In this document: positions 1,690 to 62,559 of the stretch, piece by piece
How positions within the stretch are numbered: the first letter of the stretch is position 1
How the letters are laid out: every line of letters begins with the position of its first letter
Source: Owenia fusiformis
Lineage: Eukaryota; Annelida; Polychaeta; Sabellida; Oweniidae
Reading direction: 5' to 3'
Length of the DNA stretch: 64,000 nucleotides
Assembly (NCBI GenBank): GCA_903813345.2
Contig: CAIIXF020000009.1
Location: forward strand, 11,650,030-11,714,029
Made by a program: the position numbers and the translations under genes
The notes under the pieces: generated by a model
Database searches by the model: none
What the model was told of the DNA's origin: nothing
Seen by the model: the letters and a program-made list of their open reading frames with translations, nothing else

Positions 1690-4110
1690 TGAATGTATTT
1701 TAAAGCGCTTATTTATATATTTGTGATCTTTATAATTGTAATTAAAACAAATTACTATTATATATTTTTAGCCAAAAGCTTATTTTATGTAACAATGACA
1801 AAAATCTTTTATAACCTGATCAACTGAATATGAGCAAAGTAAACTACAATCTTCTTAAGAACAAAGTTGAACCCGCTTACTGTGCAATGTAAATTGCAAT
1901 TATTGAATGTATTTTTAGAGCATTTATGTAAATCGATGATCTTTAAGATTGTTATTGAAACTTGCTATATATTTTAGCTTATATCTTATTTTATAACAAT
2001 GCCAACAGTCTTTTAGAAGCTAATGAACTGAATATGAGCAAAGTAAATTGCAATCTTCTTAAGAACAAAGATGAACCCATTCAACTGTGTAATGTAAACT
2101 GTAATTTTAGAAGAGCACTTCATATATATTGATAATCTTTAAGATTGTTATTGAAACTTATTATATATTTCAGCTTATATCTTCAGAAACAAGTCAAATT
2201 CTTTACTTCAGAGAATATTTTTAATTTATTGAGACTTTCGACTAATATCCCTTAGTCTTTTTCAAAATATAACAGCATGTATACATTTATGTGACGTCAT
2301 AAACAGACAATGGAAAATTTAATTATGTAACAAATGACCTAGTAACCTAAAAAATAACAACAACAAAAAACATAGATACGAAAAAACGAATGACCTAATA
2401 ATAACCTTAAGATAAATATATCATCTTATTTTGTAACCATGCCAACAGTTTTTAGAAGCTAATGAACTGAATAAGCAAAGTAAACTGCAATCTTCTTATG
2501 AACAAAGTTGAACCCATTTAACTGTGCAATATAAACTGCAATTTTTGTATTTAGCTTAGAGCTTATTTTATAACCATGCCAACAGTCTTTTAGAAGCTAA
2601 TGAACTGAATAAGCAAAGTAAACTGCAATCTTCTTATAAACAAAGTTGAACCCATTTAACTGTGCAATGTAAACTTCATTTTTTTTATTTAGCTTAGAGC
2701 TTATTTTGTAACCATGCCAACAGTCTTTTAGAAGCCAATGAACTGAATTTGAGCAAAGTAAACTGCAATCTTCCTATGAAAGTTGAAACAATTCAACTGT
2801 GCAATGTAAACTGCAATTTTAGAATGTATTTTTAGAGCACTTCATATATATTTGTGATCTTTAAGATTGTAAAATCCACTTACTACATGTATATTTTAGC
2901 TTATAGCTTTTTTATAACCATGCCAAGAGTCTTTGAGAAGCTAATGAACTGAATAAGCAAAGTAAATTGCAATCTTCTTTAGAACAAAATTGAACCCGTT
3001 CAACTGTGCAATCTAAACTGCAATTTTGAATGTATTTTTAGAGCACTTATGTAAATTGATGATCTTTAAGATTGTTATTGAAACTTACTATATATTTTAG
3101 CTTATAGCTTATTTTTAACCATGCCAAGAGTCTTTGAGAAGCTAATGGACTGAATAAGCAAAGTAAACTGCAAATTTTGGAATGTATTTTAAGAGCACTT
3201 ATGTAAATTGATGATCTTTAAGATATAGTTATTGAAACTTACTATATATATTAGCTTATAGCTTATTTTTAACCATGCCAAGAGTCTTTTAGAAGCTAAT
3301 GAACTGAATAAGCAAAGTAAACTGCAATTTTAGAATGTATTTTTAGAGCACTTCATATATATTAGTGATCTTTAAGATTGTAAATGAAACTTATTTTAGC
3401 TTAGGGCTTATTTTATAACCATGCCAACAGCCTTTTAGAAGCTAACGAACTGAATATGAACAAAGCAACTGCAATCTTCTTTAGAACAAAGTTAAACCCA
3501 TTTAACTGTGCGATGTAAACTGTAATTTTTGTATTTAGCTTATAGCTTATTTTATAACCATGCCAACAGTCTTTTAGAAGATAATAAACTGAAATAGCAA
3601 AATAAACTGCAATCTTTTCAAAAACAAAGTTGAACCCATTCAACTATGCAATGTGAACTGCTATTTTAGAAGAACACTTCATATATATTGATAATCATTA
3701 AGATTGTAATTGAAACTTATTGATGTATTTAGCTTATAGCTTATTTTATAACCATGCCAAGTGTCTTTTAGAAGCTGATGAAGTGAATAAGCAAAGTAAA
3801 CTGCAATCTTCTTTAGAACAAAATTGAACTCATTCAACTGTGCAATGTAAACTGCAATTTTGAATGTATTTTTAGAGCACTTATGTATATTTGTGATCTT
3901 TAATATTGTAATTGAAACCTATTTTAGCTTACTAGGGCTTATTTTATAACCATGCCAACAGTCTTTGAGAAGCTAATGAACTGAATAAGCAAAGTAAACT
4001 GCAATCTTCTTAAGAACAAAGTTGAAACAATTTAACTGTGCCATGTAAACTGCAATTTTTGAATGTATTTTTAGAGCACTTATTTATATTTGTAATCTTT
4101 AAAGATGCAT
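1690..4110. repeat. Satellite-like tandem array, about 12 irregular units
   Basis: The array is built from one degenerate unit of roughly 130-210 bp. Successive blocks are ACCATGCCAACAGTCTTTTA, GAAGCTAATGAACTGAATAA, GCAAAGTAAACTGCAATCTT, GAACAAAGTTGAACCC, AACTGTGCAATGTAAACTGC and TTAAGATTGTTATTGAAACT. The first block recurs near 1996, 2441, 2575, 2714, 2920, 3120, 3276, 3420, 3559, 3754 and 3951. Some units lack the middle block, so spacing varies. A 220-bp unrelated stretch (about 2190-2415) interrupts the array. Short ORFs here are by-products of the repeat. Confidence 0.85.
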
Positions 4111-4643: not shown

Positions 4644-6825
4644 CTGGAATTATAGCAAATACGGCATGAACACCCAGGAATAGCCTGACAACAGTAAAGT
4701 CAGATACCGTTGTCACAAATGGCGTACATAACAATCGCTCCAATTAGATTTTCATGAACTGTATGTTTAACAGAGCACCTAGACTAAATTCATTTGGAAT
4801 AACAATTGATCAAAGTGCCTTGATACTCATTGTACAATTAATAATGCTTTACCATCGAAATAAAATCTTTAATTTAACTGATCAAAGCAAATGGGATATC
4901 ATATGATACATTATCACATGAGCTTAATACATGCAAAGAATAAGCATGAAATGAGGACCAAGTGATTAAACAGTTGAAGCGACGGTTATGTCAGCCATTT
5001 GTGACAACGGTCTCTGACGTTACCTAATCAGGATATTCTGCTGTTATGAAGTAAACCAACTGTAATGTGTTTGAATTGTTTCCCGGTAATTTAACAATTT
5101 ATATATAAGTTCATTCAGTGTAATTATTGCTTGCACGCTTCCCAGCATGCAACAGTTTGTACTTTCACCCAAAGTAAAATGAAATAAAATGTTTAGTGCT
5201 TTGATTAAAACATCAGTTTATGTTTAATACAGAACACCAACAAAGCCAACTAAATCAAAACTTGTAAAGTGGATGCCTCTATAAGTAGAACGCCCTTCAT
5301 GAATCATCTGTGAAACATTTTTCTAAGTCGCATTTTGAATTAATTTTATTGTTGAATGAACCTCGAGGTCGATACATGGAGCTGCATTTCCAAAAAGAAT
5401 TTCACTAGATATTGTATTTGACTCAAGTATCATCCTTTACAGAATACTAACCTTTTTAGATGTAGTAAAGTCAAGTCGAAAGGTAACTTGAACGAGACCT
5501 TCCATGTTATCTAGCATAGAGGGATCAGCAAACTCTCGATGCATTTCAATGGCTTCATTAAAATCATGTATTGTAGGGCTATAGAATAATTTGAACCAAA
5601 CATCATCTACTGGGACTTTGTCATTGGCACGTCTTAATTTTTCATCTAGTAGTTGAATTTTCCTCGCTAAATTTGGCAATACATATCTGGAAAAAGAAAT
5701 GTTAACTGCGTGTAGCATTGAATGCATCAGAAACATCAGTATAAGGGTCTCGTCATGTCGATAACAGATATTGACAGAAAATGTTCATATATGTTCACAG
5801 TAAAAATTTGTAGTCAGTCAAAACAGTACTTGTTGAGTTATTGGAAGTTTTACGAACTTGTTACACAAGAATTTGTTACAGACACCAAACAACAACTGCT
5901 GAACACTATCCCCAAAAAAGTTGGGAGACTATAACAATATGTCAGCACTTTTTGTGGTGACATGAAAATCAAAAAATAAAAACATAAAGGGTTGAGTTTA
6001 ATCGATTAGTGAAATGCATCAAAAACCTTACTTGTTTCATTAACTTAAACTCAAAGTGTTTCTATAAATATTGAATGATTGGAGTTATCATTTCCATTGA
6101 TCAAGCACTATCTTAAATATTGAATGATTGGGGTTATCATTTTTATTGATCAAGCACTATCTAAAATATTGAATAATTGGAGCCATCATTTTTATTTTTA
6201 TTGATCAAGGGCTACCTTAAATATTAAAAGATTGGAGCTATCATTTTTATTGATCAAGGGCTACCTTAAATATTGAAAGATTGGAGCTATCATTTTTATT
6301 GATCAAGGGCTACCTTAAATATTGAATGATTGGAGCTATCATTTTTATTGATCAAGGGCTACCTTAAATATTGAATGATTGGAGCTATCATTTTTATTGA
6401 TCAAGGGCTACCTTAAATATTGAATGATTGGAGCTATCATTTTTATTGATCAAGGGCTACCTTATTTGCTTTCAAATCTCTCATTTTCACTATTAGTCTT
6501 CTGATATCAAAGATCTTTAAACTTACTTTCAATTTGCTTTGATCCTTTCAAGTTTCTACTCCATTTAATAAACATAAAACGTGTAAAATGGAGCATAATA
6601 TTACATAAATATTTTGGACATACTTTTTCTTTTGTGCAATCCATCTTTTATCCTTTGCCTCTGTTGGAGCTTTGAATCGTTTACCACCTTTATGTCGGAC
6701 TAGCTGTAGTATGGGCTGTCTCACATTTGGTTGTGCCACATTTGGTTGTGCCACCACATTTGGTTGTGCTCTATTGCATCCAAGACAGCCATAATGATAA
6801 TGCGGTGATATCAATCTATGTAGAA
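4551..6825 (-). CDS. MRPL1: Mitochondrial ribosomal protein L1 (uL1m), three internal exons, incomplete at both ends
   Basis: Three minus-strand exons, 6825-6624, 5686-5452 and 4643-4551, join with matching phases (2, then 0) and clean GT/AG borders. Together they encode about 176 residues. The second and third exons align by eye with human MRPL1: VPVDDVWFKLFYSP corresponds to the human PEDDVYLKRLYP segment, and INNIVAMPHWFDDGNPDNRV to the strand before the L1 fold's INKVAVF. MRPL1 binds 16S-type rRNA at the L1 stalk of the mitochondrial large subunit, near the tRNA exit site. The start codon exon (expected above 6826) and the last ~190 residues (expected below 4550) were not found. The left part may lie beyond the window edge. 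It is divergent from CNOT6. Confidence 0.8.
5452..5686 (-). CDS. MRPL1: MRPL1 exon B (start of conserved uL1m region)
   Basis: The acceptor TTTCTTTTTCCAG precedes 5686, and the donor AAAAAG|GTTAGT ends the exon at 5452. The length is 1 + 234 nt, so it accepts the phase-2 end of exon A (completing a Lys codon) and leaves phase 0. It encodes YVLPNLARKIQLLDEKLRRA, then NDKVPVDDVWFKLFYSP, then a helix HDFNEAIEMHREFADPSML and a strand LVQVTFRLDFTTSKK. This matches the human MRPL1 order of DDVY..LYP, an E/A-rich helix and YLDLTLDMALGKKK. It is the most diagnostic exon of the gene. Confidence 0.85.
6062..6465. repeat. 49-bp minisatellite in MRPL1 intron
   Basis: There are about eight tandem units with period 49, each containing GATCAAGGGCTACCTTAAAT followed by ATTGAATGATTGGAGCTATC. 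The last four units are nearly identical (for example GATCAAG at 6252, 6301 and 6350), while the first two or three are diverged (GATCAAGCACTATC) and one has a short insertion. The array lies in the intron between exons A and B (5687-6623). Confidence 0.9.
6624..6825 (-). CDS. MRPL1: MRPL1 exon A (mitochondrial targeting / N-terminal basic region)
   Basis: The acceptor is a T-rich tract ending in CTAG just before 6825, and the donor is AAAAA|GTATGT with GT at 6623-6622. The 202 bases comprise 2 nt finishing a codon, 66 codons and 2 nt. The protein runs VLHRLISPHYHYGCLGCNRA, then three AQPNV-type repeats, then VRHKGGKRFKAPTEAKDKRW and IAQKKK. It is basic and poor in acids, as expected for a mitochondrial presequence and the adjoining linker. 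This N-terminal part is poorly conserved in the family, so assignment rests on the phase-matched splice to exon B. The upstream exon carrying the ATG is not identified. Confidence 0.65.
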
Positions 6826-12261: not shown

Positions 12262-12900
12262 GTATGAGACATTTGAACATGTTATGTTTAGCACATTTGA
12301 GCGTGCTGCCTTGAGCACATTTGAACATGCTACATTGCCACCTTGAACACATTTGAATATGCTACATTGCCGCCTTGAGCATATTTGAATGTGCTACCTT
12401 GAGTACATTTGAACATGCTACATTGCTACCTTGAGCACAATCGAATATGCTATCTTGAGCACGCTTGAAAATGCTACATTGCTACCTTGAGCACATTTGA
12501 ACATGCTACTTCAGAGCATTTGAACATGTTACATTGGTACCTTAAGCACATTTTAACATGCTACATTGCCACCTTGAGCACATTTGAATGTGCTACCTTG
12601 AGCACATTTAAACATGCTACATTGCTACCTTGAGCACATTTGAATATGCTACCTTGAGCACATTTGAACATGCTACATTGCTACCTTGAGCACATTTGAA
12701 TGTGCTAATTGAGAGCATTTGAACATGCTACATTGGTACCTTAAGCACCTTTGAACCATACTACCTGGAGCATATTTGAAGATGCAACCTTGATCACATT
12801 TAAAAATGCTACTTTGAGCACATTTGAACATTGCTACCTTGAGCAAATTTAAAATACAGCTCTATGGAGTGCATTTGAACTTGCCACCTTGATCACATGT
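12262..12900. repeat. Minisatellite of CTACCTTGAGCACATTTGAA-type units
   Basis: About 25 short units alternate ACCTTGAGCACATTTGAA and CATGCTACATTG, with spacings of 22 and about 33 bases. The array grows more degenerate towards its 3' end. It ends about 700 bases upstream of the first CNOT6 coding exon. Confidence 0.85.
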
Positions 12901-37700: not shown

Positions 37701-40700
37701 ATAATGTGTCTTTGTCCCTTGGCAAGTAGCAATGTGTGGGGGATGACAGATGTTTCATATCTATATGTTGCGGTTAATATAATTGGCCCCTTCGGTCACT
37801 TCTAAAAACATCATATTTGGTTTATCATTTGAAATGTTTTAATATAAGTGCATTTAACTATTATCAAGAACAAATCTAGAGTACTGTAATCAATAATGAA
37901 ACATATATTAATATTTGTTATATTTGATGCTTGTTTAAAATTAGTTCAAATGTCAAAGTGCTCCTGTATTGAAGATACACATGATTTTTCATAGTATAAA
38001 ATGGAAACAGTGGTTAAATTAATGACTCCATTTTTATTATGATTTATTGGTATTGAGTGGGTCACATTTATTGGTATTGAGTGGGTCACATTTATTGGTA
38101 TTGAGGAGGTCAGATTTATTGGTATTGAGGGGGTCAGATTTATTGGTATTGCGAAGGTCATAGTCATTGGTATTAAGGGGTCACAATCATTGGTATTGAG
38201 AAGGTCACAATCATTGGTATTGAGGAGGAGGTTACAATCATTAGTATTGAGGAGGAGGGTACAATCATTGGTAATGAGAGGGTCACAATCATTGGTATTG
38301 AGGAGGAGGTCACAATCATTAGTATTGAGGAGGGCACAATCATTGGTATTGAGAGGGTCACAATCATTGGTATTGAGGTCACAATCATTGGCATTTAATG
38401 GGTCACTAATATTGGTATTGAGAGGGTCACAGTCATTGGTATTGAGGGGATAACAAGGGCAAGAAGCAAGATTATTTCTCAATGGTTCTATCATTTTGCC
38501 TCTTTTTTATTATTTTATTTTATTATTGAGAGGGATGTGATATATAGCATCTACTCTCATCTGTGTCAATTTTCTGGGCTGCCTACATGTCTAAATGCAG
38601 TATGCCACCCAGACATCATGATGTATGTGTAAGGATGAGATTATATAAAAGGCATTCAGTTATTTGTGTCAAATAAGGCAAATATTATGCTGGCAAGAAT
38701 GTCTTATAATGATGTGTGTTCTTTTGAGGATATTATATTTTTTCTTTATTTTTGCGTAAAGAAAACTTACATAAAATTTACACAGTGTTTCTTTCAACTG
38801 TTTATTACTAACACATTCTAAATAGATTTTCAAGAAAATGATGCTACAGATATCAAAGATTGTGATATGGAAAGAAAATTTGCCACAGATATCAAAGATT
38901 GTGATATGGAAAGAAAAAGATGCTACATATATCAACGATTGTGATATGGTGACATCGAATTGAAATACATTTTCTATAACCCTGCGAAAATATGTAGGAT
39001 AAAACGTCACACCGCGGTCAATCAGATCATTAGAAGAATTCACTTCATTGAATAAATACTTCACTTTGATGTGATTCCTGCTAACTTTCAAGAAACACTA
39101 AATCTATTCAAAATTGTCGATTTTGTGTTAAATTAAGTGAAACAGCTAGATAATTGATCTAAAATTGAATGACCTTAGCTTGCTAATAGACAATTGATCT
39201 AAAATTGAATGGCCTTAGCTTGTAAATAGACAATATTAATCTAAAATTGTATGGCCTTAAGGTGAACAATTGTTTGAACTGGGTTAAATGATATATGTAT
39301 TTGTGTGTCAAATGTAATTATTTATTTTTTTATAATTTATTTATATACATTTATTTGTATGTGAATATATCTTTTACTTATCAATCATCCTTTTAAATGC
39401 TTAATGATAATATGTTAACTAAATAATTAGTATGTATCGATTTATCAATTAAAATATAAACTATATTTTACATTAACTGATGAGAATATTTTACAATGGT
39501 CATGTTCTGAAATTATGAAATATGAAATAGAATGAAAAAGAGTAGAATTAGCAAGGAATAAAATAAACAGACATGTAGTCAACACTCTAAATTATACAGA
39601 AATGCAAGAGAATCAGAGACTGGAGGTGAAATTTTTGGCAAAACATGTTCTCAGAAGATGTAGCTGAAATTTAAGATGTGTCTAATCTCTAAGGTCATTT
39701 AGGGCCTCTAGTTCCAATAAGTGAATCTCAACAAATCGATTTTCTAGCTTGGGTGCCTGGACCAATCAATATATTCAATAGAGAAGGAACTTCACTGCAT
39801 ACTTGAGAATGTACCGACATTCTTAAAGATGTTCTTTGTTGTATTGCATTTGTATAAAGAACAAAAAATACCATTGCGGTATTTGCATTCTCGACTATCT
39901 CTGAAAATTGTAGTGGTCTCGTAACTGTTCCATGAAGATGTACTCTGGTGAACCATTTTCTCGCAGAAAGTCACTCCCTGATCCACTTCTCGTCTCTGTT
40001 CTCAGGCAGGGTGGAAAATAGATATTTGGGGTCCATCTGGCTTGATTTGATATGCTGTAATTTAATAAATCTATATTGAAAAATGTGTTTGATTTCCGCA
40101 CCCGGTTTGGTATAATATTTGGAGAATGTCTGCAAGTAATTGGAATCTATTGATCATGATAGTTAGTTCCAAAATGTCAGGTAGTTATAGATATTTCAAG
40201 AAGATATCTATGATATTTCTATATTTCAAATCACCTGATGTTTGCCATCTTCCAATTCCAAGTTTAGAATAACCTAAGCTCTGTAGATCAAGAAAATATT
40301 TGCTGAATTTTCCATTAATTGACATTATATTGGCACTTAAGGACCTTCTGCTATGTTGAACCTTGTTTGAGAAATACCAGCAAAAATTATTGATCAAAAA
40401 TGCATTTCGCCCAATTTCTCTCATTCTATATGATTTAAAGTACCGGTATGTGTGCCATTTACAATAATTTACCTTTGAAATATAGTTGGTATTTAGACAA
40501 TTTAAAGTCCATTTTGTGATGAGATAGTCTCAAAGGAATATTGATTTAAAGGAGGTAATCTCCCCATGGTATATTCTGGCAAATTCGATTGCATTCAAGA
40601 TTGTTGGCTGTTGTAGAAAGGATATGGATGATTTCTGTACAAATGTTGTCATCTCTCCACCCCCCTCCTTCCTCTCTCATATACTCTTTCTGGGTGGATG

Positions 40701-51291: not shown

Positions 51292-54200
51292 CTATTGTTT
51301 TGTTTTAAAGTACATCTATCTGAAATCGTCAAGTAATCCCAAATATGAACACTTTTAATTGCAATTCAAACATGCCAAGTGTGTCTCAGCCAATCAGCTT
51401 AAAGCATTTCAGTGTGTTAAATTATTTATATATTCATGGAAATGATTTTGCTGTGCATTTAATTTTTGATACGTGCACGGGTTGAGCAGGGCTATTCTTT
51501 AAAAAGGGGTGACAGCTATATATCATACATGTGTTCATGTCAGTCAATGCAATGATTTTCCAACTAAGTTTTCATAATTTTTCTGCATCAAATTAATCAT
51601 TTCATTTCCTATATAATATCTTGACAAACAAAACCTTCTTAATAGTTTTCAAACGAATATCAGTTGTAACCCAGCACCCCTATTTAGTATTTCTAAATAA
51701 TAAACTTGTACAAAAACATATAAAATTTAATTTCTTCAAAGACAACAATCTTGTAGATGTAAATGGTGAACTATTCTACTTCATCATTGACCAGAGTCAT
51801 GTTTGAATTGCAATAAAGAATCATGTATCATTTTATATTAGAAATATAAAAGCATTCTTGTATGTACTGACCCATTCTGATAATGCACTCAGGCTCTGCC
51901 TTCATGCATTATGTGTATGGGTTGGTACATACACTCATGCTTTTATATTTCCAATATAGTATGATACATGATTCTTTATTCCTTAAATAAATATATAAAT
52001 AGAGATATGAACAATTCAAATATTAACACCTTCAATTATGATATCTTACAACCAGTAACGATATTTCTAATACCCGATTATTAAAATAAACTATAACTTC
52101 CTGTATTATTAGTTAATTGTTAATTAATAGTTACACAGATCAATAAATCTCTGTTTGACAGGATATACACAACATAATTCACGCTTGATTGAATATTATA
52201 ACAACAAAGTATCCATTAACATATTCAGTCAGTTTATGTATAGTACGGATTTGTTATCATGCTTGATTGAATATCATGATAACAAAACATTTATTATCAT
52301 ATTTAATGAGTCAGTTTAAAGTTAAAGTAACATGATTTCATCAAATGTCTATCTGTCTTTATTAATATTATTATTATGGATTTTTATTATATATTTATTA
52401 TATATTTATATGAACTTTTATTTGACTTGTTTAATTAATATTTATTTCTTTGTGTTTTTCAGTTACGTCTAGTCAGCCACCTCAAAGACCATGGATTCCT
52501 CTTGCAAATCCCGAGCGCAGGAAGCCAACAGGTGAAATTTTACAAAATTCAAATATTTAAAGAAAAACGATGAATTTGGAAGAATTAATTAAGTTTTATA
52601 TAAAACAAGATGGGAATGTTTAATTCGTGGAATTTGATTATCATAATCAAAATGTATGTCAAAACAAACCTACTTTTGTACATGAAGAGCCCTTGACATT
52701 TTTTGAAACATGTTTTGTTTGGCATTCTTTCTTTCAGATAAGACATGTACATCGTACATGTGTTAGACTTTGTCCCAACGAGGAATGTACTAATGTTGCA
52801 CTGACCCAATATTTCACTAAAGTTGACAACTTTCTACATCTTGTAAAAACTTGAAAAATACTATGTTCTTCATGGGCAATTTGTCATTTTACATGGGTTT
52901 TGTCAGAAGTTGAAGCACCTTGTGGTAGAGTTTGGTATTTGGACCATTTGCTTTTTTATGTGACACAATGCCAACAGCACAACGGACTTTCACCTCATTA
53001 TGTCATCTTGACATGTCAACAAAAATGTCACTATAGCCATGCTTTAAATTGCAAAATAAACCAGAAAAAAGTTTAATTAGCAAGGAATAAACTAAACAGG
53101 AATGTAGCCAACACGCAAAATTGTAAAGAAATACAAAAAATGGACACCTCGTTCAAATTTTAGTGAGTAAAATAGCACAAGCAGATAGATTTTATGATAG
53201 ATTACACATATAGAAATTGTATAGTTTATGGAGTTATCTAATCTGGAGGATAAGGATTATTTTAGTGCTTTTTTTAGCTACTTGAGTGATATTTATAAGC
53301 ATGCGGTAGTATCTCTTCGGGACGTATCGAAACCACTCCGTCCCGAAAAACCGTTAATTTGAATTTAAAACCAACCCCAGTGTTTGAAAATCAAGGATTG
53401 TGAGTCTCAAACTTCACCGTTTTTCTTCAAACTTGTTCCGTACAAAGCTTCACAGAAATACCTTTCAGTCGATACATTGTTTTCATGTACAAAGTACCTC
53501 GTTTTAGCGGCGTTTTGGTCCCCAGCTGTGAGATAAAGCAAATTTTCATAACTTTCAACTGTAAGTCAAGTTATCTCGCCAGTCTTTTACCAATTCTCGC
53601 CCATAATTTCAGAATGGACTCCCATTACAACCTTCCATCGCTACGTCTTGATTTTTGGGCACCAAACGCAGCAGTTTCTAAATCATCCACACATCTCTTC
53701 AAATTTGACCAATACGTCCCGTCATCTTCCACTACGCCCCGCCGAGTCTATCACTATACACGTAGAGTTGCATTCTAAAACAATTTGTTTGTAGGTTGCC
53801 ATTGTCGATTCTAAATACCAATCAGATTGTGTTTTAAGATTCGCCGTTTAAGATTTACCCATTCTTGTCCATTTTCAATATACCTATAATAGGGTGATCC
53901 AAAATCTCCCTAAAATTTAGATTATCCGATATTGCAATATAAAGATTTTAATTACTGAACAATTGAAAATTGTAAAAGCGTATTACATGTTAGTGCATAA
54001 AATTCATAGCCAGATCAATAATTCGGAGAGAATACGCTGGACGATAGAATATTAAAAACTATAAAAACATTCTTCATAGAATTAAGCAAACAGTGTTATT
54101 ATCATTTAAGTAGTAACTGCATATGTTTAAACCACTCTGTTTAAATACAGGTAAATAAATAAATATGATGCAATGAAAATTGAAGCTTTCTGTCGAGAGC

Positions 54201-57200
54201 AATAGTCATCACAGCGTTTTTTCTTTTACATGTTACTTTTTGTACATCATTGATTGATCCGCTCTAATCTGCCCTCGGCCGATAATTTATAAATTATTTA
54301 TGTTGAACATTAGCAAAACAAGATTCCAGATTTTATTGTGTTTCAAACCAGACACTTGGTTTCCTCACAAAATCAAATACAGGACAATTACATATAATTA
54401 AAGTTAAAAAGCAACATCTTCACAAACATTTAAATTATCAATTTCATGCAATCAGTTATAGTTATACTCCGTATGTATGCTAAACTTAAGACTGGTGTTA
54501 AGAATCGACCAAGGCAAACCTATGTAAAATAACACAACGATGAACAAAATGTTTTAGAATACAACTCCACGTTTGTAGTCATAGACTCGGCGGGGCGTAG
54601 TGGAAGGTGACGGGACGTATTAGTCAAATTTTAAGAGATGTGTGGATGATTTAGAAACTGCTGCGTTTGATGACCAAAAATCAAAACGTAGCGATGGAAG
54701 GTTGTAATGGGAGTCCATTCTGAAATTATGAGCGAGAATGGGTAAAAGACTGGCGAGATAACTTGACTTACAGTTGAAAGTTATGAAAATTTGCTTTATC
54801 TCGCAGCTGGGGACCAAAACGCCGCTAAAACGAGGTACTTTGTACACGAAAACAATGTATCGACTGAAAGGTATTTCTGTGAAGCTTTGTACGGAACAAG
54901 TTTGAAGAAAAACGGTGAAGTGTGAGACTCACAATCCTTGATTTTCAAACACTGGGGTAGGTTTTAAATTCAAATTAATGGTTTTTCGGGACGGAGTGGT
55001 TTCGATACGTCCCGAAGAGATACTACCGCGTGATAAGGAGTGGTTGTGTACATATATATCATACTTTACATACTTAGTTGATAATTCACTGACATGTATA
55101 ATAGATTGAATAAACAATTGAAAAGTAAATAGACTTGATTTGTATAAATTACACGAAAATGTACTTATGTATTACATGTTTTATTGATTTGCGATGTTGT
55201 ATCACATTCTATGTCATTTCAGCTATTTCACAGTGATATGCTAGAATGTTCTATGTCATTTCAGCTATTTCGCAGTGATATGCTATGATGTTCTTTGTCA
55301 TTTTAGCTATCTTCATAGTGATGTGCTACAATGTTCTATGTCATTTCAGCTATCTTCACAGTGATACGTTACAATGTTCTATGTCATTTCAGCTATCTTT
55401 AAAGTGATGTGCTACAATGTTCTATGTCATTTCAGCTACCTTCACAGTGATGTACTACAATGTTCTATGTCATTTCAGCTACCTTCACAGTGATAAGCTA
55501 CAATGTTCTATGTCATTTCAGCTATCTTCACAGTGATGTGCTACAATGTTTTATGTGACAAATACTGCACCAGTCAGCTCTATGGCTACACTGCCTCTTG
55601 GGCTCTCAACTGGGAATACAGGAAGAAAGGGATCATAGAAGAGATTAGACACTACAGCGCAGATATTATCACACTGCAGGTATTTGAAAGAGATTTCATG
55701 AGTTTGTTATTATTACATGAAGGGGTCTTTGTCATCTGCAATGTAGGGCCTGATTAATATGTCACAAATCAAAGCTTAAACAAAGTGATGTCATAAAGTA
55801 GAATTTATGAATAAGATGAGTTATAATGATGGGAAGTGTTCTGAGACATTCATTGTGAAGCTTTGTGTACCTTTTAGACGAATTGAAAAAATGCAATCAT
55901 TCATATTTGAGCGTAAAAATAATTCATATAATTTCATTGTTGTTATGTAGGGTTCAAGGTAACATAACTGCCATTCATCATTCATCATTTGTTTAATTAT
56001 CGAGTAAGCTCAAATGGTTATATATTTTTTTATCTCTATTATCATTAATTACACTTCACTTTTATAAGGATAGGAGTGTTTCGTTTTATCGGAAATTCAT
56101 TTTTTGTTATATTGATCTCAGTATTTAGTTAAGAGTTCCTAGATCCTGTATATACAGTGAAACTTGTAAATTGTATTGTATTTTGTTTGTTTACCACCAA
56201 TGAAGGTGAGCAATACCTCTTGGGTATGTCCCGTATATATACGGTCGTAATTTACATAATTAACATGGGAGATAGACCCAGAAACCCCTCCTTGAAGGAG
56301 CCCTGTGTTCTTTTATGTGCACTTATACATAGGCATATAAGTACACACCACAGCCTTTTCGAACGAGTTGCGAACCACTCAGTCAAACACCCTGAAGTAC
56401 TTCACGCAAACGAGCAAATTTAGTCTTGCCTGAACCGGGGATTGAATCCGGGACCTATTGCGTAAGAGGTACTTGTGCTGCCACTGAGCAACACGGGTGT
56501 AAAGTGGAACACCTCTTGAAGTGTAACACTTCAGAATCCCAAGACCAACTGATTGTAATGTTACATGAACCTCTGTTAGTGGAATACCTCCCAAAGTGGA
56601 ACACTTTCTAGAGGTACCAAAGGTGTTCCACTTAGACAGGTCACTCTGTACATTTAGCAATGTGGGTGAATTATAGTTTTGGCTTTCGGCTCTTATCTCT
56701 ATTTTACTTTTATGAGTAAAATAGGAGGAAAGGGTTATGGGGAGGTTATAATAGCAATTTCATAGCAATTTATTTAATTCCGCCTCATAAATCTCACACT
56801 GATAATATGTGTAAATAATAGAACAGATATTTGTAAACAAACAATATAAATATTCCAACTTCATTTTTTATTTTTTTCTATTCTATTTTAGTATGAACAT
56901 ATCACTCAAATGTTGAATGTTTAATGGAATTCACAGTAAAGTTATATGGTACAATTTGGCAACTGTACATTCAAGAGTCCCCCTATAGGCAATATAATAT
57001 TTTATGTTTTTGAAAAGCAGACCTGTCACCATGGTAGTTTTAAAAAGCAAAATAGAGTACAAAAGAATGAAATCAGCAAGGAATAAAGTATATAGGCATG
57101 TAGTTGATACTTTCAATTGTACAGAAATGCGAGAAAATTTGACACTTCATTCAAATTTTAAAGAGAAATTGTAGCAAGAAAGAGTGAGCAGACGGACAAA

Positions 57201-60200: not shown

Positions 60201-62559
60201 AGACAAAGTCGGACATCCTGCTCAATATTACATTGTTATTGTAGCATTTACTAATCCCGTCAAATTGTTTTACCATCGTCAGATGTGATAAGTATATTGA
60301 TTAAAATAGAATCTGCTATGATAGAAACAAAAGAATCAGTAAAAATTTTATGAACATGCCCCAATTTTCTCTCAAAAGTAAAAGGTCAAATCTTGCACAA
60401 GATGAATGATAGCCAAAAAAACGCCACTTTTTTTCAAAATGCTATAACTTTTTTAATTTTTGATACAAAATCATAATTCACATACCAAATAAAACTTGAG
60501 GTTGTTATCTACTATCTAGCCATTGATCATGAATTATACACTTTTACTTGAATAAAATATGTCACCAGCATCTCACTTAAACATGTGGTGTGCCATGAGA
60601 AATAAGCATAATTTGCATAATGTTCCTAAACTGATACGCCCTTATGACTGCAAGCTAATAGCCCTAATTCAAACCCAAGTGAGTATAGGGCATGGGGAGG
60701 TCTCCAGGAGATGGTATGAAGGCACCCGATCTAAAAAATTGCTTAACTAAAGCTGGCAATTAAGACACATTGAAAAAAATATAGCTAACATTTCATTGAT
60801 ACTGCTATATCAGCAAGGTGACTAAAACTAAAATCTATCATCAAATGGGGTGGCGGACCAATTGAACTCCTCTTTTTAGATCAAATATAATCCCAGTTGA
60901 AGGATTTGTTACATAATATTATTACTAAGAACCCTTGGCACTATATAACTGCAAAATTTGGGGTATGTAGGTTGGAAAATAAAAAAGTTATAGTGTATTT
61001 TTTTGGCCCACCCTGTATATACAAAAATTGAGTAAAATGTGCAACAGGGTGAAGAACTCTAGCTATATTTTTGCATATTTAAATATGGGACAGAAGGGAC
61101 AGGGACAGAACCACATGCAATGAAATTGATTCTTCACTTTTATTAAATACATTAACCATGGGCACGTTATTTTCCATCATAGAAATTCTAGGCTAATAAT
61201 CATATATTTAATCTACATAACATATAATACCTAAACTATTTTCTATTTATTTATTTATTTAGAAATATACTTTTCATCTTTTACATCTATGATTGCTGTG
61301 AACTTTTCATGTAAATGTGTTAATAAATTAGCTTTGGTCACTGTAACCTATCAGGAATTCAAGCAGATGAAATATTAACAAGTTTGAAACATAATATAGC
61401 ATATAATCAAATCATGTTTTATAGGGAGATATGATAACAATCAGATATATTAAATAATCAATACTCATGAACCTTTGTTGCTAAAATGTAATTTACAAAT
61501 GAAATGAGAAAATTGGTTTGAAGGTCATGCTTTGGAATGAAAAATTGAATGAAAAAGAGTGGAATCAGCAAGGAATAAAGTATACAGGCATGTAGTTAAC
61601 ACTCTAAATTGTATAGAAATGCAAGAAAATTAAACAAGATGGTCATGTTTTAAAATGCAAAATAGAGTGGAAAAGAGTGGAATTAGCAAGTTATAATGTT
61701 AACAGGCACATAGATATTACTTTAAATTATATTGAAATGTAACATAGTTTAATTGTTTATTCACATTATAGTGAGGAATTAGGTGAAATAGCCATGCAGA
61801 GAGGATAAAAGGCCATTACAAAATAATTGTCTGTAATGCCTATCATATTGTTTCAACCCAAAACTGTCCTAATCAATTCTTTTCTTGCTTTTCATTTTGA
61901 CACATCTTTTTGCTTTTACAAGTACAAGAAATCGCCTGTTCATCCCCCCAACAAAAAAATTCCTGTTAAGCAAAAAATTAACCAGGTAGACCTCATTATA
62001 TGTGTTACAGGGACGGTTTCTTAGAATCACTTTCACTCATGTCATGCAATCCAATTAGAAGATATCAGAATGTCAATTTAGTTTTAATGTGACACACCCT
62101 GATCGGTGTCATTATTGATGTCACACTGGTGCCTGGATACTAGATAATACCTGTATGTGTCCATGTGAAATTTATACATGTTTTTTATAATTCTGTAAAT
62201 TATACTGAGATTCCATCATCATTCTTTGAAGTTTTAAGGTACTGTTAAGTTTGATCCATATAAATCCACCAAAATTCTACTTAAAGAAAATATTTTCAAA
62301 ATTGCATGGGGATTTTAAGCATGACTAGTAGCCATTATGCTATAATTCATAAATGGGATTTTCAGAAAAATAAGAAGTTAATTGTTCTGTTTATGTATTT
62401 CCAGGAAGTGGAAACTGAGATGTACTTTAATTTCTTCCTCCCAGAACTCAAAAGAGATGGCTACGACGGTATATTTTCCCCGAAATCTCGTGCCAGGACT
62501 ATGAGCGAAACGGAGAAGAAGCATGTCGATGGTTGTGCTGTATTCTACAGAACAACCAA
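13595..62559 (+). CDS. CNOT6: CCR4-NOT complex deadenylase CNOT6/CNOT6L (CCR4), residues 1 to ~285, six exons, continues past the window
   Basis: This is the 3'-to-5' poly(A) exonuclease of the CCR4-NOT complex, which shortens mRNA tails in the cytoplasm. Exons are 13595-13706, 14582-14845, 15430-15528, 52463-52531, 55522-55679 and 62405-62559; all junctions are GT/AG and phase-consistent (1,1,1,1,0). The protein opens MPKDKYEPPDRRRCHTIMS, as in vertebrate CNOT6. It then has leucine-rich repeats (about residues 45-125, the CAF1-binding region), a proline-rich linker, and the endonuclease/exonuclease/phosphatase domain from about residue 180 (VMCYNVLCDKY, LQEVETE, FSPKSRARTMSE, KHVDGCAVFY). 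The metal-binding Asn and Glu are present. Human proteins are about 555 residues, so roughly half is here. One ancestral gene is expected outside vertebrates, so CNOT6 versus CNOT6L is not meaningful. Confidence 0.95.
14404..14512. repeat. Partly palindromic repeat with CRE site, CNOT6 intron 1
   Basis: AACGTCATTTCGAAGGGCAA at the left and TATGACGTCACATATTGCTC at the right show inverted similarity. The words CAATATAG and CGATATAG flank the centre GGACCTAGGGCCGATGC. It resembles the foldback families at 926-1126 and 22355-22505. TGACGTCA lies at 14466-14473. Confidence 0.4.
14582..14845 (+). CDS. CNOT6: CNOT6 coding exon 2 (leucine-rich repeats)
   Basis: The acceptor TATATTTCTAG ends at 14581 and the donor TCATTAG|GTACGT has GT at 14846. 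It is 88 codons, phase 1 to phase 1. It contains three to four LRRs of the CNOT6 type: LTSLFLNDNNLHLVPPEI, LMALDLSQNKIRSLPAELG and LRELLLNNNHLRVLPYEIG. In yeast and human CCR4 this surface docks onto CAF1 (CNOT7/8). Confidence 0.95.
15430..15528 (+). CDS. CNOT6: CNOT6 coding exon 3 (last LRR)
   Basis: The acceptor TATCTTTTAAG ends at 15429, and the donor GCAA|GTAAGTT has GT at 15529. It encodes LSGNPLNPEILNLFNEHNGT and then KLMQYMLDNLA, matching human GNPLSQDILNLYQDPDGTRKLLNFMLDNL. It leaves phase 1 and joins the exon at 52463 after a 36.9-kb intron. Confidence 0.93.
15550..15840. repeat. 77-bp minisatellite
   Basis: Just under four units of period 77 begin TACACTCTTGTTCATATTGG (15629, 15706 and 15783) and include GTAATTCCAAATGGA. 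Half-units are related to each other (ATTGGACAAGTAGTTC versus ATTGCACAAGTAATTC). It lies just inside intron 3. Confidence 0.9.
16075..16345 (+). mobile_element. SINE-like element copy with tRNA-type head
   Basis: A B-box-like GGTTTGATTCCCC (about 16113) is followed by GGTTGAGTGGTCC and the block AGGGAGGGGTTTCTGGGTCT. The same order appears on the minus strand at 56190-56505 with a better preserved tRNA head. Two copies at unlinked sites sharing a body of about 270 bp with a polymerase III head indicate a tRNA-derived SINE family. Conserved short ORF fragments here (RPRNPSLK on the opposite strand) come from this shared block. Confidence 0.55.
16435..17073. mobile_element. 639-bp foldback element with ~210-bp inverted arms
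   Basis: The left arm starts TAGTAGCCTGGCCAGAACAA and the right arm ends with its exact complement GGCCAGGCTACTA. Arms 16435-16645 and 16860-17073 match at high identity, including AATATGACATTATTTTTTAA and complement. A 215-bp non-coding spacer lies between. The flanks read TAAAA on both sides, a possible 5-bp target duplication, though TA inside the termini is an alternative. Confidence 0.8.
18975..19040. repeat. Dispersed ~100-bp family ending TTTTGCATGTTAATGCC
   Basis: Copies of one family share GGTCTCCA(A/G)..TTTTTGTG, GTCTGTAACAAATGGCAGG and GACATTTTGCATGTTAATGC. They occur at 15291-15395, 17285-17390, here (internally deleted), 33655-33750 and 45180-45232, all on the plus strand. The first two read TGGCAGTCAGTGTCTGTAAC or close variants. 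The origin is unknown. Confidence 0.6.
19637..19842. repeat. Short tandem triplication, variable ~50-80-bp unit
   Basis: Three units carry GGTTTATCACAATTTCCCTC, an ACC(T)TTTCAGGAGGCACCC variant and CACAAGAATGTTCACCATTA. The first unit lacks the last part. It abuts the inverted-repeat element that starts at 19848. Confidence 0.75.
19848..20446. mobile_element. ~600-bp element with ACCGTATTCTCTGTAATTA ends
   Basis: The left terminus TACCGTATTCTCTGTAATTA and right terminus TAATTACAGAGAATACGGTA are exact reverse complements of 20 bp, each ending in TA. CGCCCAC / GGGCGCT words extend the inverted similarity. A third internal copy of the terminal word (ACCGTATTCTCTCCAATAAC) lies near 20240, suggesting a composite or nested insertion. 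There is no transposase. TA-flanked termini fit a Tc1/mariner- or IS630-like non-autonomous element. Confidence 0.7.
20470..20815. repeat. 108-bp tandem repeat, three units
   Basis: The period is exactly 108 (CATGGAAG at 20531, 20639 and 20747). Each unit holds TTCAAGCTTTTTAACATGGA and GAACACATGGGA, ending TTAATTGGTGTTTAGATTA. Because 108 is divisible by three a short repetitive ORF spans two units; I do not consider it a gene. Confidence 0.9.
22355..22505. mobile_element. Perfect-arm palindromic MITE-like element
   Basis: Arms of about 70 bp, 22358-22430 and 22434-22505, pair closely. Each contains GGTTCAGGATATTGGGATTA, GGCCAATATAATATATCTGC and CCGAGGGC, around the centre GGCCGTAGGTC. The centre words CCGAGGGC and TAG resemble those of the 926-1126 palindrome, so both may belong to one family with different arms. 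Confidence 0.75.
22761..22789. other. 29-base perfect hairpin in a related foldback remnant
   Basis: AGCGGGCAGATATA and TATATCTGCCCGCT pair over 14 bp around a single base. A further TATATCTGCCCGCT follows at 22808-22821. The stretch from 22506 to about 22910 seems to be a second, rearranged part of the preceding palindromic element and ends with a GGGATAAA word like that at its start. Confidence 0.5.
25514..25537 (+). promoter_or_regulatory. Candidate internal promoter: E-box and TATA-like box
   Basis: The E-box CACGTG (25514-25519) lies 10 bp upstream of TATATAAA (25530-25537). About 110-140 bases further on is a strong consensus splice donor (CAG|GTGAGT at 25674/25675). This is the expected layout for a first exon starting near 25562. 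It is the best candidate promoter for the large coding exon at 27653-29105. Confidence 0.35.
25562..25674 (+). other. Candidate 5' noncoding exon of the nested transcript
   Basis: The sequence ends AAAATTATTCAG|GTGAGT, a consensus donor with GT at 25675-25676. The next good acceptor on this strand that opens a long frame is TTTCATTTATTTCAG at 27610, giving an intron of 1.9 kb. The exon start is set only by the TATA-like box 25 bases upstream. Confidence 0.35.
27653..29105 (+). CDS. Large coding exon nested in CNOT6 intron 3, unrecognised protein (484 residues to the donor)
   Basis: An exon from 27611 (acceptor TTATTTCAG) has its first ATG at 27653 and stays open to the donor AAAAT|GTAAGA (GT at 29106), phase 1. 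This is by far the longest frame in the window. I do not know the family. Visible features: basic N-terminus MMGKKTKRKG; CVEC (C39, C42) then a basic RSKPVKSRRRQSK stretch; a serine-rich acidic part (198-240); a cysteine cluster CPQQECPEC (C266, C271, C274); a lysine-rich nuclear-signal-like HSKKKAKK; YVDLTDSD (384-391), which fits the SUMO-interacting motif pattern; and a tyrosine/proline/glycine-rich region (410-450). It is likely nuclear and largely disordered. The frame runs on to a TGA at 29237-29239, but that tail is tRNA/SINE-like, so I end the exon at the donor. Reading it from CNOT6 exon 3 gives an early stop, so it needs its own start. Confidence 0.75.
29128..29190 (+). repeat. tRNA-like SINE remnant after the nested exon's donor
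   Basis: GCCTGAGTGGTTAAGCATG (A-box type, as in Leu/Ser tRNAs) and, 35 bases later, GTTCAGTTCCC (B-box type) give a polymerase III promoter layout. It begins about 20 bases after the splice donor at 29105/29106. It supplies most of the ORF extension beyond the donor, supporting the view that those 44 codons are intronic. Confidence 0.55.
31526..31630. mobile_element. CAGGGGTTTCA-ended MITE, copy 2 (internally deleted)
   Basis: It starts CAGGGGTTTCATTAGCAGC, ends GTGAAATCCCTG and keeps CAACAGGC and AGCCTGTTGTGAGAAAT. It lacks about 60 bp of the interior seen in the copies at 13155 and 45311. No target duplication is visible. Confidence 0.65.
34704..34779. repeat. 16-bp tandem repeat
   Basis: CCTTGAGCCCTTGTGA repeats at 34704, 34720 and 34736, then degrades through 34779. 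It is non-coding. Confidence 0.85.
36190..36225 (+). mobile_element. Mariner-like terminal repeat fragment
   Basis: TACGAGGGTTGATCCAAAAG, preceded by ATA, matches the general form of mariner ends (TACGAGGG followed by a CAAAAGTT-type word). No opposite end or transposase could be found within several hundred bases, so it is probably a broken copy. Confidence 0.4.
37320..37475 (+). repeat. ~130-bp dispersed repeat, reference copy (family of about 20)
   Basis: The consensus order is TTTCTC..TAAATTTGAATGA, AGTGTCTGATTTTCTTGCAT, TTCTATACAATTTAGAGTGT, TGACTACATGCCTGTTTACT, TTATTCCTTGCTAATTCC and TTTTGCATTTTAAAA. Plus-strand copies lie near 21275, 30430, 32965, here, 44015 (interrupted), 46010, 47925, 49835, 50710, 57845, 57952 and 60050. 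Minus-strand copies lie near 30700, 39500, 43020, 47565, 48195, 48425, 53045, 57035, 61530 and 61640. There are no inverted ends and no tRNA-like boxes that I can see. None was found before 21 kb. Confidence 0.8.
38035..38455. repeat. 21-24-bp minisatellite, about 18 units
   Basis: Units are of the form TCATTGGTATTGAGG(AGG)AGG followed by TCACAA. Because most unit lengths are multiples of three, repetitive frames stay open on both strands (minus strand NTNDCDPL heptads, plus strand SLVLRRR). I regard these as by-products of the repeat and not genes. Confidence 0.9.
38845..38950. repeat. Triplicated ~40-bp unit
   Basis: Three units contain GCTACAGATATCAAAGATTG followed by TGATATGGAAAGAAAA, the third diverged. 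Confidence 0.8.
39130..39262. repeat. Triplicated ~40-bp unit
   Basis: Three units contain AATTGATCTAAAATTGAATG followed by GCCTTAGCTTG(C/T)(T/A)AATAGAC. The last is degenerate. Confidence 0.8.
40815..41090. repeat. 30-bp minisatellite, about nine units
   Basis: ATTACTCAAACTTGTGGTAA followed by CCTGAATTC(A/G) repeats with period 30. A longer spacer unit with GTTCATGTTTGACAATC interrupts it near 40925. Confidence 0.9.
41452..41633 (-). mobile_element. CAGTGATCTCC-ended MITE, copy in reverse orientation
   Basis: It starts CAGTGATCACCCACTTG and ends GGGGAGATCACTG. The interior repeats the word CAAGTGGGTGCAAA/CACCCACTTG several times. It is related to 44106-44305 and 46440-46613. Flanking bases AATTA and ATATA do not form a clear duplication. 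Confidence 0.7.
44106..44305 (+). mobile_element. 200-bp CAGTGATCTCC-ended MITE with 5-bp target duplication
   Basis: The termini CAGTGATCTCCC and GGGGAGATCACTG are inverted repeats, and CATTC occurs directly on both sides. It has inserted into a copy of the ~130-bp dispersed repeat, whose two halves resume cleanly at the duplication. The inner sequence repeats CAAGTGGGTGCAAA. The 5-bp duplication with CAG ends suggests a hAT-related group, unconfirmed. Confidence 0.85.
45311..45474. mobile_element. CAGGGGTTTCA-ended MITE, copy 3
   Basis: It is full length, from CAGGGGTTTCATTAGCAGC to TTGAAACCCCTG, with TAATT directly flanking both ends, an apparent 5-bp target duplication. It is closely similar to copy 1. 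Confidence 0.75.
46440..46613 (+). mobile_element. CAGTGATCTCC-ended MITE, 5'-damaged copy
   Basis: It matches the interior of 44106-44305 (ACCAAAATTGGTCAAAATAT, TTTTCAAGTGGGTGCAAATG) and ends CTGGGGAGATCACTAT. The left terminus is degraded or lost. Confidence 0.75.
51258..51290. repeat. (ATCA)n microsatellite
   Basis: About eight uninterrupted copies of the tetranucleotide ATCA/AATC occur in intron 3. Confidence 0.9.
51808..51990. mobile_element. ~183-bp full-length palindrome
   Basis: The two halves are reverse complements at high identity from end to end: AATAAAGAATCATGTATCAT on the left and ATGATACATGATTCTTTATT on the right, with AATATAAAAGCAT and GCTTTTATATTTCC inside, and TGTATGTACTGACCCAT opposite ATGGGTTGGTACATACA. 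Only about 20 central bases are unpaired. It is consistent with a small foldback element. Confidence 0.75.
52180..52325. repeat. ~78-bp direct duplication near CNOT6 exon 4
   Basis: CACGCTTGATTGAATATTAT and ATGCTTGATTGAATATCATG begin two tandem copies. Each contains AACAAA(G/A)(T/C)AT.CATTA and TCAGTTTA. The array ends 140 bp before exon 4. Confidence 0.7.
52463..52531 (+). CDS. CNOT6: CNOT6 coding exon 4 (linker)
   Basis: The acceptor TTTGTGTTTTTCAG ends at 52462 and the donor CCAACAG|GTGAAA has GT at 52532. The 69 bases encode ITSSQPPQRPWIPLANPERR followed by KPT. This is the short linker between LRR and nuclease domains, equivalent to human EQPPPRSWIMLQEPDRTRPT. It is too short for a simple ORF search but clear by phase and homology. 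Confidence 0.92.
53300..55032. mobile_element. 1.73-kb inverted-repeat element with ~520-bp arms and 5-bp target duplication
   Basis: The left arm (53300-53820) and right arm (54492-55032) are reverse complements at roughly 95% identity. The termini are CA(T/C)GCGGTAGTATCTCTTC. ATAAG directly flanks both ends (53295-53299 and 55033-55037). The spacer is about 670 bp of AT-rich non-coding DNA. Each arm has the same short frame beginning MYKVPRFSGVLVPSCEIKQI; both are the same sequence seen from either end, and I see no transposase motif in it. GC-rich words GGGACGTAT recur in the arms. High arm identity suggests a recent insertion. It sits in CNOT6 intron 4. Confidence 0.88.
55201..55521 (+). 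repeat. CNOT6: 43-bp tandem array of duplicated 3' splice sites ahead of CNOT6 exon 5
   Basis: Eight AG acceptors at 55222, 55264, 55306, 55349, 55392, 55435, 55478 and 55521 are spaced 42-43 bp. Each unit reads TGTTCTATGTCATTTCAG then CTATCTTCACAGTGATGTGC. It thus carries a pyrimidine-containing acceptor plus the first codons of exon 5 (AIFTVMCYNV). Only the last is followed by the rest of the exon. The array evidently arose by tandem duplication across the intron-exon border. Confidence 0.92.
55522..55679 (+). CDS. CNOT6: CNOT6 coding exon 5 (start of catalytic domain)
   Basis: The acceptor GTCATTTCAG ends at 55521 and the donor CTGCAG|GTATTT has GT at 55680. It encodes AIFTVMCYNVLCDKYCTSQL, then YGYTASWALNWEYRKKG and a helix ending DIITLQ. 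The Asn of CYNVLCDKY is the metal-site Asn (N195 in human CNOT6L). The acceptor used is the eighth of eight near-identical 3' splice sites in a 43-bp tandem array (55201-55521). Only this last one keeps the frame open. Confidence 0.95.
56190..56505 (-). mobile_element. tRNA-derived SINE-like element, minus strand
   Basis: Reading the minus strand from 56505: GTTGCTCAGTGGCAGCA (A-box type), then CCGGATTCAATCCCC (B-box type), then a body with AGGAGGGGTTTCTGGGTCTA. The body block is shared with the copy at 16075-16345. The tRNA-like head is recognisable but mispaired, so it is not a working tRNA gene. Confidence 0.65.
58235..58475. repeat. AAGTAGAACACCTCT minisatellite
   Basis: About twelve units of AGTAGAACACC plus CTCTGTCTGT, CTATA or CTTTATCCGT repeat at irregular 17-35-bp spacing. 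The same GAACACCT word occurs in degenerate dispersed copies near 20470, 40770, 41690, 45260 and 56507, often ending in a TTTTACTGTA-type tail. Confidence 0.8.
62405..62559 (+). CDS. CNOT6: CNOT6 coding exon 6 (catalytic domain, continues beyond the window)
   Basis: The acceptor TATTTCCAG ends at 62404. It encodes EVETEMYFNFFLPELKRDGY, then DGIFSPKSRARTMSETEKKH and VDGCAVFYRTTK. The first codon is the catalytic Glu (E240 in human CNOT6L). The donor is taken as ACCAA|GTAGGT with GT at 62560, since reading on gives an in-frame TAG at once. That leaves phase 2, and the next exon must complete the Lys codon. The remaining exons, including the Asp/Asn and final His motifs, are past 64000. Confidence 0.92.

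Follow-up and report, generated by a model that had tools for sequence, protein, structure and literature searches.

Eight tandem 3' splice sites before the nuclease-domain exon of a CNOT6/6L gene, a probable splice-border mirage

Mirages are minisatellite-like copies of intron-exon borders in amphioxus. In the passages of PMC3087553 and PMC3902484 that are drawn on here, they are described in Adh3, the globins BflGb6 and BflGb9, and troponin C, with a similar arrangement in PGBD5. The repeated units measure 10-160 bp. The BflGb6 array is on the acceptor side, is made up of the 3' end of an intron and the 5' part of exon 2, and has 6 units in one haplotype and 3 in another. The same passages mention RT-PCR results that suggested normal splicing and cite somatic instability for Adh3. 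Among the papers listed in a literature search, "mirage" in the splice-border sense was found only for amphioxus (PMC3087553, PMC3902484), and none was recognised outside it.

Other minisatellites are also found at splice sites. The human IFI6 (6-16) minisatellite contains multiple splice donors, and the extra sites are used, giving three mRNA species (Turri 1995, as cited in a passage of PMC4526556). At their exon-intron boundaries, human segmental-duplication genes carry variable tandem repeats of ~30 bp, and alternative transcripts and novel introns often accompany these (PMC2812944, in part). In an earthworm, minisatellites are described in introns, not at splice sites, in the part of PMC12783039 consulted.

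The array described here belongs to a CNOT6/6L gene and was found in a stretch of 64,000 nucleotides (the window). It is composed of eight head-to-tail units, two of 42 bp followed by six of 43 bp, that fill positions 55207-55548 (Table 1). TRF reports a period of 43, 8.2 copies, and a score of 546, and similarity extends to 55556. Each unit contains TTCTATGTCATTTCAG, the last 16 nt of the intron with its pyrimidine tract and AG, and then the first 26-27 nt of the exon. The acceptor AG is kept in 8/8 units, as CAG in seven and TAG in unit 3. Pairwise identity between units is 81-95%. The true unit, unit 8, shares 88-95% identity with the other seven, and for six of them no unit is closer. A 129-nt stretch of the array recurs at six registers of 43, with 66-90% identity to the reference copy. 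The first-pass annotation had described seven near-identical acceptors spaced 42-43 bp apart before the true exon, which TRF, unit alignment, and reading frames confirm. The array is present where that annotation had placed it, and its end is at 55548, not 55535.

Table 1. Coordinates of the CNOT6 array, its gene, and other splice-site arrays in the same genome. Positions are those of the window unless a contig is named; the last number given for an acceptor is the last base of its AG.
Feature	Position	Strand	Acceptor AG	Remark
Upstream CNOT6/6L exon	52463-52531	+		phase-1 donor ...CAACAG/GTGAAA; joined product aligns to CNOT6
Unit 1, 42 bp	55207-55248	+	55221-55222	if used, stop after ...PTAISQ
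Unit 2, 42 bp	55249-55290	+	55263-55264	if used, premature stop
Unit 3, 43 bp	55291-55333	+	TAG 55304-55306	if used, premature stop
Unit 4, 43 bp	55334-55376	+	55348-55349	if used, premature stop
Unit 5, 43 bp	55377-55419	+	55391-55392	if used, +129 nt in phase, hits TGA
Unit 6, 43 bp	55420-55462	+	55434-55435	if used, premature stop
Unit 7, 43 bp	55463-55505	+	55477-55478	if used, premature stop
Unit 8	55506-55548	+	55520-55521	true intron end and first 27 nt of true exon
True CNOT6/6L exon, 158 nt	55522-55679	+		start of nuclease domain; then donor GTATTT
Proposed duplication seed (putative)	55549-55558	+		exonic TTTTATGTGA; 8/10 like unit start TTCTATGTCA at 55207
Next CNOT6/6L exon	62405-62559 (end approximate)	+		joined product aligns to CNOT6
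Sushi (L038)				TTTCAG acceptor array; Pfam E 4.4e-4
Relaxin-receptor-like GPCR (L039)				TTTCAG acceptor array; PDB sequence E 2.9e-8
Cys-loop receptor (L040)				TTTCAG acceptor array; Pfam E 1.1e-14
Glycosyltransferase 64 (GT64)/EXT (L042)				TTTCAG acceptor array; Pfam E 6.7e-8
UBX (L044)				TTTCAG acceptor array; Pfam E 0.0016 (below cut-off), family best 6.4e-4; PDB weak, E 0.031
mTOR (L049)				TTGCAG acceptor array, only three units, without TRF call; E 5.6e-17
Kynureninase (L053)				TTGCAG acceptor array; E 3.1e-15
Muted/BLOC1S5-like exon (L096/L100)	C1:2574650-2577100			donor side; ~29 52-bp GTAAGT units over 1.5 kb; E 5.9e-15
Tetraspanin-like gene (L095/L099)	C1:442200-444100			donor side; 54-bp GTAAGT units; preceding exon E 1.3e-4, below Pfam cut-off
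Unnamed exon ending MFAAFMNITQPDNE (L098/L052)	C1:10224900-10226700			donor side; 54-bp units

The reading frame at 55497-55679 matches CNOT6L (E 2.9e-24) and CNOT6 (E 4e-22) in the PDB. The three joined exons give 128 residues, the first of which depends on one intronic base, and align without gaps to CNOT6 (PDB 7ax1, which we take to be human) with E 8.7e-60. The junction 52531^55522 joins G and CT into an Ala codon. The gene name, the splice phase, and the donor at 52531 had been given correctly, and frames and the PDB alignment support the earlier placement of the ladder before the nuclease-domain exon.

Joining 52531 in silico to each unit acceptor leaves the frame open only with the last, at 55521. 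With all seven upstream acceptors a stop is reached before the end of the exon, including 55392, three units up, where the added length is a multiple of three. None of the seven can therefore add a full-length protein isoform. Transcripts from the outer acceptors would be expected to be targets of NMD, and coding logic points to 55521 as the acceptor in use. The true exon also has an internal AG at 55533, and use of this site would drop four codons in frame.

NAGNAG-type tandem acceptors are AGs a few nucleotides apart that compete before one exon. The CNOT6 array also places several AGs before one exon, but here whole acceptors recur every 42-43 nt. The array resembles IFI6, as that gene is described in the passage cited above, in being a minisatellite that multiplies a splice site. 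The IFI6 unit is a donor, whereas the unit of the CNOT6 array is an acceptor and not a donor. Minisatellites at exon-intron boundaries are shared with the human segmental-duplication genes, but those cases are recent paralogs in the part of PMC2812944 consulted. The closest likeness is to the amphioxus mirages, as far as the passages cited describe them. The repeats cross the intron-exon border of a real gene, the splice signals lie within the repeated unit in all eight units, and the array is on the acceptor side, as in BflGb6. Unlike the amphioxus cases, the array lies in another gene, has eight units, and is known from DNA alone, and its genome has other arrays at both splice-site sides.

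The best explanation of the CNOT6 array is a mirage: a minisatellite with a unit that spans the intron-exon border, tolerated as a by-product rather than kept as a dedicated device; we put the probability of this reading at roughly 0.8. Mirages are a kind already known from amphioxus, and the CNOT6 case is a further example that is not unique in its genome. Slippage or misaligned repair involving TTCTATGT at the intron end and TTYTATGT in the conserved Val-Leu-Cys codons of the exon may have produced the first duplication. Further slippage or unequal exchange would then have multiplied and homogenised the units. Added units would land on the intron side and be spliced out while the exon-proximal acceptor serves, and use of that acceptor would make the array tolerable. 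Selection would purge alleles in which an outer acceptor is chosen, since these would lose CNOT6. On this view the array is a tolerated product of a minisatellite-rich genome.

A match as good as that between the proposed seed of the first duplication and the unit start is reached by 0.11% of 10-mer pairs drawn at random from the window and by 0.5% of those spaced 43 apart when arrays are counted. The exon side of the seed encodes NVLCD, which is conserved in the CNOT6 alignment. Because this side is conserved coding sequence, the short homology probably predates the first duplication and may have seeded it.

Minisatellites are common in the window, where 17 arrays with a TRF score >100, picked by hand, make up 8.3% of the sequence. 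Besides the CNOT6 array, long minisatellites are found at 2425-4102, 6065-6464, 12290-12855, and 38046-38456. The intron that holds the CNOT6 array also contains an inverted repeat ~170 nt upstream of it (53300-53789 and 54543-55032), with arms of 490 nt that are 96% complementary. The first arm has at least 42 other matches in the genome at 96-99% identity, which points to a young repeat family. GC content is 33.2% in the window and 34.8% in 194,673 sampled bases that include the window. The GC content of amphioxus is ~41%, so the DNA, at 33%, probably comes from another lineage.

When the genome was searched at the DNA level, two matches scored, the window locus and C3:16548350-16548595 (71%; L002/L003). 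The second is a decayed CNOT6 exon with adjoining parts of both introns, aligned in two BLAST blocks of ~70% identity that lie within window positions 55098-55941. The exon is broken by insertions and deletions. The relic is a DNA duplicate, and a retrocopy origin was ruled out because parts of both introns are included. Decayed units are found upstream of its exon, with a score of 145 against the repeated consensus when five units are allowed and 86 with two; the maximum in 200 shuffles was 67. As read by eye from this alignment, what was once the true acceptor and the two units nearest to it each have an altered or interrupted AG. At the seed position the relic reads TTCTATGTGA, one match closer to the unit start. 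Since remains of the array are present in the relic, the array was probably already there when the copy arose and is thus probably older than the duplication. The living units are 81-95% alike while the flanks are ~70% identical to the relic, which is compatible with turnover within the array. The first-pass annotation had also proposed that copy number varies. This is plausible, as the relic has fewer recognisable units and amphioxus mirages vary (PMC3087553, passages cited).

The genome, 498.26 Mb in 525 contigs, was searched for triplets of the hexamer TTTCAG, spaced by 26-50 nt. This gave 6174 matches, compared with 2037 for the reversed hexamer. Samples were chosen by eye: 10 of ~20 distinct places among 100 of the 6174 TTTCAG matches, in the first 3.45 Mb of contig C1, 20 of 27 places for TTGCAG, and 12 of ~25 for the control TTTGAC. 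Places left out were apparent dispersed elements, chance matches, and one coding repeat among the controls (C1:1027476). Five of the ten TTTCAG arrays end in a real exon, and their unit consists of the intron end and the first bases of the exon. A further one (L037) stops ~57 nt before a Sushi-like exon, as judged by eye. Among TTGCAG arrays, 2/20 run into exons. At C1:2604182 there is an array whose units resemble a serine protease motif by eye, and no exon was seen at its 3' end. Donor-side arrays are also present (Table 1). One of these was considered as a set of tandem mini-exons (L052), a reading that was dropped because its other end (L098) is a donor-side array. The tetraspanin-like exon has its own acceptor and start duplicated once directly upstream. 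At C1:256085-262533, more than 6 kb is made up of ~55-bp repeats with GACTTTGATGAGGATGGGAGC.

Open reading frames around the acceptor arrays (30 regions) gave 8 Pfam families in 68 ORFs, reported by family rather than by matching ORF. Four of these families are at E 0.0019-0.005, as marginal as two matches among the control ORFs (E 0.0015 and 0.0033). The 12 control TTTGAC arrays, scanned at both ends with 57 ORFs, have no Pfam match <1e-3. The scan left out L041, L046, L050, and L056, where the array fills the region, and L055 had no ORF. Frames after the last acceptor were compared with Pfam for 8/10 TTTCAG arrays, those of L037 and L041 being only 11 residues long, and the PDB comparison covered L039, L044, L049, and L053. 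The TTTCAG result, 5/10 against 0/12 controls, has p=0.0096, and on Pfam evidence alone (4/10) p=0.029. For all acceptor arrays together, 7/30 against 0/12 is not significant (p=0.16). A fixed edge took the place of the TRF edge, where no TRF array lay near it, in one acceptor region (L049) and 10/24 control regions, and the PDB comparison was restricted to acceptor arrays, so the control is weaker than it appears.

Scaling five cases per 100 of the 6174 matches suggests ~300 TTTCAG cases genome-wide, a crude figure that comes from one chromosome end and a by-eye choice. At 30 P450 loci (110,673 bases; six look single-exon), no array was found <=130 bp from the end of the matched stretch, which speaks against a high frequency per exon. 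Searches of the genome for the COX1 and hemerythrin families returned no match. Triple-hexamer counts per single hexamer, with singles taken from the 194,673 sampled bases, are 26.5 for TTTCAG, 29.3 for TTGCAG, and 80.9 for the donor GTAAGT. The control ratios are 12.3 for GACTTT, 11.9 for TTTGAC, 14.0 for CAGTTT, 4.1 for GACGTT, and 25.3 for TGAATG. These counts were rejected as a genome-wide measure, as the TGAATG control comes so high and giant arrays inflate the counts, which makes their support weak. The chances are about even that hundreds of acceptor- and donor-side ladders, with 3 to ~30 sites, are present at core genes such as mTOR, CNOT6, EXT, kynureninase, and BLOC1S5, and that the spliceosome reliably takes the exon-proximal copy.

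Some outer acceptors of the CNOT6 array may be used at a low level and without benefit, with a mild load set by array length, in a ladder that is neutral and leaks harmlessly. This reading is compatible with the tolerated mirage and is a possibility to be taken seriously, though the balance is against it. The acceptor cores are nearly identical among units, and splicing to unit 7 or unit 6 would lengthen the exon to 201 or 244 nt, which is within the usual size range. For 66% of the intron changes linked to boundary repeats in human segmental-duplication genes, the other transcript was supported as well (PMC2812944, in part). However, amphioxus mirages are reported without disturbance of splicing in the passages of PMC3087553 and PMC3902484.

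Partial use of the outer acceptors could also set the level of CNOT6, with early-stop mRNAs degraded and array length tuning output. CNOT6 is an mRNA deadenylase and acts in mRNA decay. The AG is intact in 7/7 outer acceptors, and each leads to an early stop. However, the 43-nt unit is not a multiple of three and has a TGA in one frame, so early stops are expected anyway. Compared with the true unit, the intron half of the other CNOT6 units differs at 2/112 sites and the exon half at 19/189 (p=0.005; p=0.03 on minimum changes and p=0.018 without the hexamer), which would be a weak hint of selection on the outer acceptors. The same leaning is seen in the arrays of the GPCR (p=0.045), EXT (p=0.33), and Sushi (p=0.56) genes, and the UBX array leans the opposite way (p=3.8e-5). 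In these four arrays the units were delimited by exact hexamers, the division into halves was made by eye, and the hexamer was excluded; pooled, they do not confirm a constraint on the acceptor halves (p=0.47). Acceptor-half constraint was dropped as evidence of function given the pooled value and the opposite result in UBX. Similar arrays at unrelated genes favour a general mutational cause over regulation of splicing, and a role in setting CNOT6 levels is improbable. The earlier suggestion that the ladder could regulate splicing is not supported so far, and nothing found calls for it.

It is very unlikely that the array is an early step toward a new intron or exon, by intron gain through tandem duplication of the Rogers type. 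The same model was put forward for amphioxus mirages (PMC3087553, in part), but here the extra units sit inside an existing intron, with no sign of a new one. Least likely of all is a ladder created or lengthened by misassembled reads, for although the array is known from a single assembly, its units carry their own substitutions and a decayed array remains on C3.

As a tolerated mirage, the CNOT6 array extends the kind to what is probably another lineage. Eight acceptors with a near-identical core, only one of them productive, pose a clean question of splice-site choice. Use of the last acceptor would mean that exon definition or the placement of the branch point outweighs the order of sites in the RNA. 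What gives the array wider interest is how numerous its kind seems to be in the genome. Many arrays of varied unit length and copy number in one genome, as spot checks suggest, would be natural replicates of the choice rule. If there are hundreds of ladders, mirages would impose a load across a whole genome beyond amphioxus and would amount to a large natural experiment in the choice of one splice site among many identical ones, set against the simple rule by which the AG that comes first downstream of the branch point is taken.
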